DNA from: Porticoccaceae bacterium
Lineage (GTDB): Bacteria; Pseudomonadota; Gammaproteobacteria; Pseudomonadales; Porticoccaceae
Reading direction: 5' to 3'
DNA length: 64,000 nucleotides
Assembly: GCA_024639885.1 (NCBI GenBank)
Contig: JAHEGD010000001.1
Span: 1-64,000 of the forward strand
Positions 26,388 through 29,719 of this stretch are shown one piece after another (position 1 is the first letter of the stretch; each line of letters opens with the position of its first letter). Under the pieces are notes generated by a model that saw only the letters and a list, made by a program, of their open reading frames with translations, had not been told where the DNA came from and did no database searches. The position numbers and the translations under genes were made by a program.

Positions 26388-26843
<456 letters not shown>

Positions 26844-26866: not shown

Positions 26867-28120
26867 TTATTTGCCGGCTACAAACTCTGGGTAGGCGTCA
26901 ATGCCACACTCAGAGATATCAACCCCTTCGTACTCTTCTTGCTCGCTAACCCGGATACCCATGGTCGCTTTCAGAGCCATCCAGACGATACCGCTGGTGA
27001 CAAAGGTCCAAGCGAAGATGGTGACGATACCAAGCAGCTGGCCGTAGAGGCTGGCGCCGTCGTTGGCTGAGAAGCAGACTGCCAACAGACCCCAGATACC
27101 CGCAACACCGTGTACCGAGATAGCGCCGACCGGGTCATCGATACGGATCTTGTCCATCATCAGTACCGAGAAGACCACGATCAGACCGCCGACACCGCCC
27201 ACCAGCGTTGCCGACAGCGCATCCCACGCCAGTGGCTCAGCCGTGATTGATACCAGACCGGCCAGCGCACCGTTGACCGCCATGGTCAGATCCGCTTTGC
27301 CGAACTTGAAGTGGGCAACAATCAGCGCCACCAGCAAGCCGCCACACGCTGCCGCGTTGGTGTTGACGAACACATCGGCTACCGCGTTTGCTTCACTGAT
27401 GTCAGAGACTTTTAGCTCTGAGCCACCGTTAAAGCCGAACCAGCCCATCCACAAGATGAACATACCGATAGCGGCGAGTGGCATATTGGCACCCGGGATA
27501 GCCTTAACACTGCCGTCTTTGCCGTACTTGCCCTTGCGAGCGCCGAGCAGTAACACCCCCGACAGCGCGGCAGCAGCACCACACAGGTGGACCACACCGG
27601 AGCCGGCAAAGTCTTGGAAGCCAGCCGCGTCTAGGAAACCGCCGCCCCACTTCCACATACCTTGCATCGGGTAGATGAAGCCAGTCATAACCACAGCGAA
27701 GGCGAGGAATGCCCACAACTTCATGCGCTCGGCCACCGCACCAGAGACAATCGACATCGCGGTGGCAACAAAGACCACTTGGAAGAAGAAGTCAGAGGCA
27801 CCCGAGTAGTAGGTGTCGCCGTTGCTGGCTAACACTTCCTCGGCGGTGGCATTGGCAATGCTATTGCCAAACCAGGCGTCGGGCAGGAAACCACCAGCAC
27901 TGCCACCGTACATGATGGTGTAGCCCATCAGCAGGTACATGGTGCAGGCGATCGCAAACAGGGCGACGTTTTTGGTGAGGATCTCGGTGGTGTTTTTACT
28001 GCGCACCAGACCCGCTTCAAGCATGGCAAAACCGGCTGCCATCCACATCACTAGCGCGCCGGACACCAAGAAGTAGAAGGTGTCTAACGCGTACTTTACT
28101 TCGATTAAATCAGGGCTCAT
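26867..28120 (-). CDS. amtB: Ammonium transporter
   Basis: A 417-residue Amt/Mep channel with 11 predicted membrane segments. Landmarks are VMWMAAGFAMLEAGLVRSKN, FAGSGVVHLCGAAAALSGVLLLGARKG (with the first pore His in VVHL) and the second pore His in ISVHGVAGIWGLL. The C-terminal tail EGVDISECGIDAYPEF is the P-II-interacting end. It lacks a clear cleaved signal sequence, unlike E. coli AmtB. It follows glnK (24-base gap) in the nitrogen cluster and ends with its own terminator. Confidence 0.96.
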   Translation of the reverse strand: MSPDLIEVKYALDTFYFLVSGALVMWMAAGFAMLEAGLVRSKNTTEILTKNVALFAIACTMYLLMGYTIMYGGSAGGFLPDAWFGNSIANATAEEVLASNGDTYYSGASDFFFQVVFVATAMSIVSGAVAERMKLWAFLAFAVVMTGFIYPMQGMWKWGGGFLDAAGFQDFAGSGVVHLCGAAAALSGVLLLGARKGKYGKDGSVKAIPGANMPLAAIGMFILWMGWFGFNGGSELKVSDISEANAVADVFVNTNAAACGGLLVALIVAHFKFGKADLTMAVNGALAGLVSITAEPLAWDALSATLVGGVGGLIVVFSVLMMDKIRIDDPVGAISVHGVAGIWGLLAVCFSANDGASLYGQLLGIVTIFAWTFVTSGIVWMALKATMGIRVSEQEEYEGVDISECGIDAYPEFVAGK

Positions 28121-28143: not shown

Positions 28144-28506
<363 letters not shown>

Positions 28507-29226
28507 TTAAAGTGACTTTGAGACAGTAAAGATCAAGCTGCCGTCGCAAAGCACGACTCCGCTATCATCGGTACATTCGTCGTCGCTAAGATCGGTATCG
28601 ACATACGAGAGATCAAAATCTAAGCCACCCATCGAAGTGCTCACCCCGATCGAGTAATCGGCGTAATCTGGGCCACCCCAAGCATCGTTATCTTTGAAAC
28701 TGTTGTCGCCGTAGTGGACGCTCAAGGTGTAGGCATCGCTTAATGCATAGCTGTAATCGACGTAGAGGTAGGTAAACTCGTCAGACTTGGCGAAGTAGTC
28801 ATCCGAGTAGGCAAACCCAACGGTAAAGTCAGTAAATGAAACACTTCCGTAGATCTCGTTGTAATCGAGGTCGCCTTCAACGTCTTTGTCTGTATTAGGG
28901 TATGTATAGGCAAGGAGACCGATGTCATAGCTGACCGACTCGTTAAATGCACCGCCGTAACCAGCGTAGTAGTCAAGCTCGAGGCCATTGCCCCACTCTT
29001 CGATACTTGAGCCCCAGGTGCCGATGTAGAAACCATTGTCGAAGGCGACATCAAAACCGCCCGAGAGCGCCACGCCGTCACTCTGGCTGTAGCCGCGGAA
29101 TTTGTAGTCTGTGCTCAGCGCAACGTTGCCAGAGGCCTCTGCAGCGACCGCCGTTGAGGCGACGCCCATGGTCATGGCGCCAAGGGTGAGTGAACCGATT
29201 GCGATTGCGAGTGTGCTCTTTTTCAT
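28507..29226 (-). CDS. TorF family putative outer-membrane porin
   Basis: A 239-residue protein of the TIGR02001/TorF family. Signal peptide residues 1-29 (SLTLGAMTMGVASTAVAAE), then a barrel opening with the family block VALSTDYKFRGYSQSDG and alternating aromatic strands (GFYIGTWGSSIEEW, ELDYYAGYGG, DYNEIYGSVSF). It ends in a short strand, SLIFTVSKSL. The surface is acidic (many Asp). GGAG precedes the ATG by 7 bases. It is the first gene behind the sigma-54 promoter at 29287 and leads into glnK-amtB, which suggests a role in letting a nitrogen source across the outer membrane. That role is inference. Confidence 0.88.
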   Translation of the reverse strand: MKKSTLAIAIGSLTLGAMTMGVASTAVAAEASGNVALSTDYKFRGYSQSDGVALSGGFDVAFDNGFYIGTWGSSIEEWGNGLELDYYAGYGGAFNESVSYDIGLLAYTYPNTDKDVEGDLDYNEIYGSVSFTDFTVGFAYSDDYFAKSDEFTYLYVDYSYALSDAYTLSVHYGDNSFKDNDAWGGPDYADYSIGVSTSMGGLDFDLSYVDTDLSDDECTDDSGVVLCDGSLIFTVSKSL

Positions 29227-29286
29227 GGTGCTTCTCCGTACTTAGGTTAGTTATGGTTAGGCTTTTTAGTCGCCTGCAATACACTA

Positions 29287-29302
29287 TGCATAAGCCGTGC
29301 CA
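29287..29302 (-). promoter_or_regulatory. Sigma-54 promoter of porin-glnK-amtB
   Basis: On the minus strand TGGCACGGCTTATGCA matches the -24/-12 consensus: the GG and GC pairs have the required 12-base offset, with one mismatch in TTGC (ATGC). The predicted start is about base 29276, 50 bases before the porin ATG. Two NtrC-like sites lie upstream. Confidence 0.75.
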
Positions 29303-29377
29303 ACTTTCAAATTTACTAAGGAATCTGGGTGCTCTGCCGATTTTTATCGACAATCCGGCGCGCCTAACTAACGCCGC

Positions 29378-29423
29378 GCACCTGATTGGCGCGGCCCGCC
29401 GGCGCAGCGCACCGATTTGGGAA
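29378..29423 (-). promoter_or_regulatory. Two predicted NtrC-binding sites
   Basis: GCACC-TGATT-GGCGC (29378-29392) differs at one base from the ideal GCACC-N5-GGTGC dyad. GCACC-GATTT-GGGAA (29409-29423) keeps one half-site and part of the other. Their centres are 31 bases apart and about 109 and 140 bases upstream of the predicted sigma-54 start, the same geometry as the enhancer at glnA of enteric bacteria. Confidence 0.65.
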
Positions 29424-29460: not shown

Positions 29461-29492
29461 AAAAAAAGGCGAGCCACTGGCTCGCCTTTTTT
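29461..29492 (-). terminator. Intrinsic terminator of the cold-shock gene
   Basis: GGCGAGCC-ACT-GGCTCGCC with A and T runs on either side, 20 bases after the cold-shock gene stop. It insulates the nitrogen promoter region. Confidence 0.9.
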
Positions 29493-29512: not shown

Positions 29513-29719
29513 TTAGATAGCAGTGATGTTCTCTGCTTGCAGACCTTTCTGGCCTTGAGTCACAGTGAACGATACTTTTTGGCCTTCGACCAGAGTCTTG
29601 AAGCCGTCACCAACGATAGCGCTGAAGTGGGCGAAGACGTCTGGGCCAGACTCTTGCTCGATGAAGCCAAAGCCTTTAGATTCGTTGAACCACTTAACAG
29701 TTCCAGTAGTAGTAGACAT
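29513..29719 (-). CDS. CspA-family cold-shock protein
   Basis: A 68-residue single OB-fold RNA chaperone. [17 protein letters not shown] (RNP1 KGFGFI) and DVFAHFSAI (RNP2 VFAHF) are intact, and the protein ends [15 protein letters not shown] lies before the ATG. A candidate promoter at 29868-29895 would give a 5' leader of roughly 140 bases, like the long thermosensing leaders of cspA genes. Whether this one is cold-induced or constitutive cannot be told from sequence. Confidence 0.96.

Follow-up and report, generated by a model that had tools for sequence, protein, structure and literature searches.

The window, a 64,000-nucleotide stretch of a contig from a Porticoccaceae bacterium, carries three closely spaced genes on its minus strand. 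The first (28507..29226) encodes a TorF-family putative porin of 239 amino acids, which matches TIGR02001 with 171.4 bits (cut-off 47.15) and PF09694 with 125.3 bits (cut-off 24); these two families were its only matches at E <=0.001. The P-II gene glnK (28144..28482; PF00543) follows after 24 bp, and after another 23 bp comes amtB (26867..28120), which belongs to the marine subtype TIGR03644 (657 bits, cut-off 514). The terminator scan located an intrinsic terminator with a 13-pair stem behind amtB on the same strand (26813..26841), which is the probable end of the operon. A strong terminator between the porin gene and glnK, named in the preliminary description as a finding that would speak against a common transcript, is absent from the scan; the only strong one follows amtB. 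A second P-II gene beyond the terminator (26388..26726, minus strand, identified by a profile match) probably forms a separate transcript, and a second P-II match is also present nearby in many relatives. Upstream of the porin gene and on the same strand lies a CspE-like cold-shock gene (29513..29719, profile match). It is parted from the porin gene by a hairpin with a T-run at about 29461-29486, seen by eye and without support in the terminator scan, and some 230 bp separate this hairpin from the TorF gene.

The TorF start codon is located 60 bp downstream of a near-consensus sigma-54 (-24/-12) element, TTGGCACGGCTTATGCA (29287..29303, minus strand), which is kept in relatives. The core of the element, TGGCACGGCTTATGCA, is found at 29302-29287 of the minus strand, and both the sequence and the geometry given for it in the preliminary description are confirmed; an additional T precedes it, so that the full element reads TTGGCACG-N5-TGCA at 29303-29287. 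With C29288 taken as -12, transcription is predicted to begin at 29276, which places the porin ATG (29226) at +51. Elements were scored at 13 positions, with GG and GC fixed, using what we take to be the sigma-54 consensus. The window element agrees with it at 12 of the 13 positions, including GG at -24 and GC at -12. A looser -24/-12 pattern with two mismatches was uninformative (42 matches found, 41.9 expected) and, being at chance level, was replaced by the 13-position score. The strict pattern is matched perfectly at four places in the 2.2-Mb genome, namely before TorF, glnA, another amtB and a gene of the phenol-hydroxylase type; with one mismatch allowed it becomes weak, with 20 places compared to 10 for the reversed control. 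When the 234 bp in front of the porin gene were shuffled 20,000 times with dinucleotide composition kept, an equally good element arose in 10 cases, and an element together with a dyad in none. The genome encodes one copy of RpoN (PF04552, 217 bits) as well as NtrC (701 bits, cut-off 558.6).

Two GCACC-type dyads had been proposed at about 109 and 140 bases upstream of the predicted start. We scored such sites against GCACC-N5-GGTGC (10 positions). The spacing holds, and so does the proximal dyad, GCGCCAATCAGGTGC (29378..29392, minus strand; centre 29385, that is -109), with a score of 9/10. The distal site, TTCCCAAATCGGTGC (29409..29423, minus strand; centre 29416, that is -140), has one intact half-site and scores 7/10, for which the word dyad is generous. 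In a same-genus relative (L033) the distal site, GTGCCAAATCGGTGC at -149, scores 8/10 and retains AAATCGGTGC, and the NtrC-type dyads are generally clearer in relatives than in the window. A dyad with at most one mismatch is weak evidence by itself, being present in 344 places of the genome and 14 times in the window (6.3 expected). The same shuffles of the pre-porin stretch produced a 9/10 dyad in 242 of 20,000 cases and a pair of dyads spaced by 31 bp in one, the pair test having been chosen after the sequence was seen. The glnA gene of this genome has the same element and dyads at -128 (10/10) and -97 (9/10); the window shares with it the arrangement of two NtrC sites 31 bp apart upstream of -24/-12, its distal site being weak. 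The NtrC sites of Escherichia coli glnA are at -108 and -140. The case for a sigma-54/NtrC promoter made from this single genome is good, and the comparison across relatives makes it strong.

The two remaining perfect sigma-54 elements of the genome differ in their surroundings. The element of the second amtB (L013, G000:C23:120172-123188) lies about 200 bp before the gene start, and a perfect NtrC dyad, GCACCGTTATGGTGC, is located downstream of it, between element and gene, which is an odd layout. At the other (L014, G000:C23:184355-187371), 50 bp separate the element from the phenol hydroxylase small-subunit gene downstream (PF06099), for which one would expect an activator of the DmpR type.

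PF09694 proteins were found in 91 of 112 Porticoccaceae genomes. We used 102 of the 104 TorF places, dropping two fragments (G064:C124:23-178 and G059:C3:146155-146331). In 71 of the 102, glnK and/or amtB are located downstream on the same strand, and in 68 of these 71 the distance from the TorF stop to the glnK start is 16-187 bp. An element of at least 11/13 within 300 bp upstream was found for 68 of the 71 linked TorF genes (all but L047, L053 and L112); the corresponding control counts were 43/3550 in shuffles, 17/3049 in other stretches of the same loci and 0/71 on the opposite strand. Dyads of at least 8/10 at about -60 to -220 accompany 62 of these 68 promoters, and 38 have a dyad of at least 9/10 (for L068, dyads were measured from the nearest element). 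In 45 of the 68, a site of at least 7/10 is present near -129 and another near -86; the window promoter, with its sites at -140 and -109, is one of the other 23.

We extended the analysis to named loci, ranking 582 relatives by their similarity to Porticoccaceae TorF and taking the top 80. The glnK/amtB genes lie downstream of TorF in 46 of them; L159, whose upstream DNA is too short, was excluded from the promoter counts, leaving 45. An element of at least 11 was found in 34 of the 45 (14/1800 in shuffles), and an element of at least 10 together with a dyad of at least 8/10 in 38 (6/1800). The full promoter is carried by Azoarcus (L207), Thauera (L206) and Parazoarcus (L210), among others. 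In four of the 80 loci glnK/amtB are instead located upstream of TorF, which then has no signal of its own: the order is glnK-amtB-TorF in L152, L177 and L182, and L189 shows amtB only. In Thiohalobacter (L152) an element (11/13) and two dyads (10/10 and 9/10) precede glnK; no element was found before glnK in L177 and L182.

In the order of the Azoarcus genome, which we take to be Burkholderiales, the TorF family is present in 77 of 120 genomes. The listing gave 109 matches in these 77 genomes; for the 30 genomes with the highest scores we analysed the top match, 30 loci in all, which include the Azoarcus locus of the named set (L207, here L214). TorF is followed by glnK in all 30 loci and also by amtB in 29, the contig ending first in L256. 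The element scores at least 10 in 29 of the 30 loci (78/1200 in shuffles), and 27 have in addition a dyad of at least 8/10 (12/1200 for both signals together). The promoter arrangement is kept over two proteobacterial classes, the beta- and gammaproteobacteria. The same element was thus found where the preliminary description had proposed to look for it, upstream of TorF-glnK-amtB in relatives, with 68 of 71 loci in the family, 34 of 45 in the named set and 29 of 30 in the Azoarcus order (at a score of at least 10). Much of this conservation is vertical descent of one ancestral operon, so that the loci cannot be counted as independent events. We regard the conservation of the predicted element in front of TorF-glnK-amtB as decisive.

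The signals are also found at TorF genes away from glnK-amtB. Among 31 such genes in Porticoccaceae, 14 have an element of at least 11/13 (15/1550 in shuffles, 3/1311 in other stretches, 0/31 on the opposite strand); some loci counted as not adjacent, such as L075, stop at a contig end and may in truth be adjacent. Of 30 stand-alone TorF loci in the named set, 15 have an element of at least 11 (6/1200 in shuffles) and 11 combine an element of at least 10 with a dyad of at least 8/10 (5/1200). The latter include Thalassotalea as well as Pseudoalteromonas (L198, L208 and L209) and Colwellia (L173), whose sites lie near -163 and -132. Because some stand-alone genes have both signals, TorF itself looks like a target of the nitrogen regulon. 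Not every TorF gene is a sigma-54 gene, since 17 of the 31 unlinked genes in the family and 15 of the 30 in the named set score below 11.

One group of these genes is linked to urea transport. In genome G091 the order is ureG, urtA, transporter genes (urtB-D by eye), urtE, a gene for a probably secreted protein and TorF, followed by genes on the opposite strand; ureG, urtA, urtE and TorF were confirmed by profile. A similar urea-transport neighbourhood with a UrtE-like gene, recognised by eye, was found in L117, L119, L120 and L122. Each of the five TorF genes is preceded by an element scoring 11 or 12. The one urt-linked TorF protein tested, that of G091, is divergent, with 59.8 bits to TIGR02001 compared to 171 for the window protein.

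The AlphaFold model of the window TorF, based on 64 aligned sequences, is a 12-stranded barrel (pLDDT 88.8). Residues 1-24 are below 50, and the N terminus is signal-peptide-like. Designed proteins aside, the solved structures shown as matches are outer-membrane barrels. With VIA-align the best-aligned solved folds are those of KdgM/NanC, with Z of 17.3 (4pr7), 17.0 (4fqe) and 16.3 (2wjq) and an rmsd of 2.1-2.8 over 163-185 residues at 10-13% identity. This likeness is one of fold only, since other barrels reach Z 15.2 and Foldseek ranks OmpG first. Searched against solved chains, the TorF profile gave no match in sequence up to E = 1. In the available passages of a survey of pore-forming families, Gcw_chp is given 12 strands and classed as 1.B.4 and 1.B.71 (PMC4827864).

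The presumed lumen was taken as the less hydrophobic face of each strand, from strand alternation rather than coordinates. In the window TorF it contains ten D/E and no K/R residues, the means over the 64 sequences being 10.1 and 1.3. An acid is invariably present at positions D59, E83 and E124 of the 64 aligned sequences, and in 98% of them at D85 and D101. The mature window TorF has 39 acids and 6 bases in total. From the acid-lined lumen we infer a cation-preferring channel. Acidic surfaces are common in marine proteins, which counts against reading the acids of the lumen as function. The pores of KdgM/NanC carry basic residues, which serve acidic sugars, whereas the presumed lumen of TorF is acidic.

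TorF of Shewanella oneidensis (SO4694), after which TIGR02001 is presumably named, has its name in common with the family that the window protein matches. In the available passages, SO4694 is called "TMAO reductase system outer membrane porin" (PMC5955497). The Shewanella TorF is thus linked there to TMAO respiration, whereas the window TorF is linked to glnK-amtB and NtrC. The closest described operon is nlmA-glnK-amtB of Herbaspirillum seropedicae, which, according to the passages available, is NtrC-dependent, with amtB::lacZ raised 21-fold under nitrogen limitation; the same passages report NlmA in membrane extracts and describe it as most probably periplasmic and so far without a function (PMC3023670). 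As far as these passages go, both operons begin with a membrane-protein gene followed by glnK and amtB. Judging from this operon position and from the gene orders of the 30 Azoarcus-order loci, NlmA probably belongs to the TorF family. A pattern derived from the published Herbaspirillum glnK primers, with bases guessed, matched none of 399 genomes, either through wrong guesses or because no such genome was sampled. In the passages available from a Cupriavidus proteome study, GlnK is strongly raised and the preceding gene is not mentioned. Among the papers listed in our literature search, which covered few subscription journals, none joined TorF to glnK-amtB or NlmA, and the identity of TorF and NlmA may already be in print; the name "TorF family putative porin" was met there in one paper, on gold nanoparticles. 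The operon type is already known in a relative, Herbaspirillum; what is new is its breadth, the identity of the first gene as a porin and the acid-lined barrel.

The element, the dyads, the conserved gene order and the lack of an intervening terminator support the earlier proposal of sigma-54/NtrC control over a single TorF-glnK-amtB transcript. We infer the following scheme. Under nitrogen shortage, NtrC-phosphate would occupy the sites near -109 and -140 and activate sigma-54 RNA polymerase at 29303-29287, giving one torF-glnK-amtB transcript that would end after amtB. TorF would enter the outer membrane as an acid-lined channel of 12 strands and make this membrane more permeable to ammonium, perhaps also to further small cationic nitrogen compounds. 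It would in this way supply the inner-membrane AmtB, which would be gated by GlnK. On the sequence evidence, the regulation by sigma-54 and NtrC and the operon structure are very likely, and the scheme as a whole, the transcript together with an ammonium-permeable TorF channel, is in our judgement likely. A role of TorF as the outer-membrane route for ammonium or small amines is plausible, with almost an even chance.

A different origin of the transcript is very improbable. The sigma-54 element could be a chance match and a sigma-70 promoter could run the operon, as a weak sigma-70-like match (29310-29283, 9/12) overlaps the element; such matches are expected by chance (one found, 1.8 expected), and a fortuitous sigma-54 element agrees poorly with the absence of the element-dyad combination from all 20,000 shuffles and with conservation over two classes. 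The promoter could also serve glnK-amtB alone, with TorF as a general outer-membrane passenger that has no part in nitrogen uptake. The placement of a TorF relative in another setting, the Shewanella TMAO system as presented in the available passages (PMC5955497), would fit such a role, as would the 21 of 112 Porticoccaceae genomes without a family match, many of which are small or incomplete. We nevertheless consider it unlikely: sigma-54/NtrC signals are kept by the 11 of 30 TorF genes away from glnK-amtB, and signals are also found beside urea transport. Moreover, the TorF gene is met both before and after glnK-amtB. Several separate linkages of TorF make a passenger hard to defend.

It is less easy to set aside the possibility that TorF serves another nitrogen source, such as urea, methylated amines or TMAO, amino acids or polyamines, and is grouped with glnK-amtB by a shared need in starvation only. 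Channels of the KdgM/NanC type are substrate-specific, which favours this explanation. So do the TorF gene near urtA, urtE and ureG in G091 and, in the passages available, the naming of the Shewanella gene as a TMAO-system porin (PMC5955497). The commonest partner of TorF is glnK/amtB (71 of 102 places in the family, and glnK in every Azoarcus-order locus analysed), and the urt-linked TorF tested is the divergent one, so that we find a dedicated role for another source possible but rather doubtful.

Ammonium uptake is usually described as a matter of the inner membrane, with AmtB and GlnK; to our knowledge it is seldom asked how scarce ammonium crosses the outer membrane. The predicted nitrogen switch and the position of TorF beside the ammonium channel, kept in many proteobacteria, suggest that the pore helps scarce nitrogen to enter. 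A conserved, seemingly NtrC-controlled pore gene heading glnK-amtB in many beta- and gammaproteobacteria is a named, testable candidate for the outer-membrane route of ammonium. We tentatively propose, with somewhat more doubt than confidence, that TorF may be the outer-membrane half of ammonium uptake, a starvation-induced cation-selective channel of 12 strands that belongs to the NtrC regulon in two classes and is as a rule transcribed together with AmtB, and that NlmA and the TMAO-linked TorF may form one family with one job, the passage of small nitrogenous solutes. If so, divergent TorF copies would accompany further systems of nitrogen uptake, urea transport among them, PF09694, a family listed as of unknown function, would gain a role, and the NlmA and TorF literatures would be joined.

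Several further features were observed at TorF loci. Double-length TorF-type proteins of 468 amino acids, which may contain a further domain or another barrel, are encoded at L170:5448-6851 and L180:5992-7395. The probably secreted protein between urtE and TorF in G091 (L235:9447-10448) is glycine-rich and 333 amino acids long, with no Pfam match at 1e-5 and no NCBIfam match at 1e-10; look-alikes were seen by eye in L117, L119, L120 and L122. Genes for a copper membrane monooxygenase are located near TorF in G091 (L235:15435-18473) and G088 (L237:12783-15917), with genes of the MoxR/VWA type close to these loci and, in G091, urea transport as well. The G091 enzyme belongs to the AmoC, AMO and Monooxygenase_B families, and its AmoA scores 256 bits, below the NCBIfam cut-off of 290; that of G088 is alike by eye. 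Such an enzyme could oxidise hydrocarbons or ammonia in this bacterial family.
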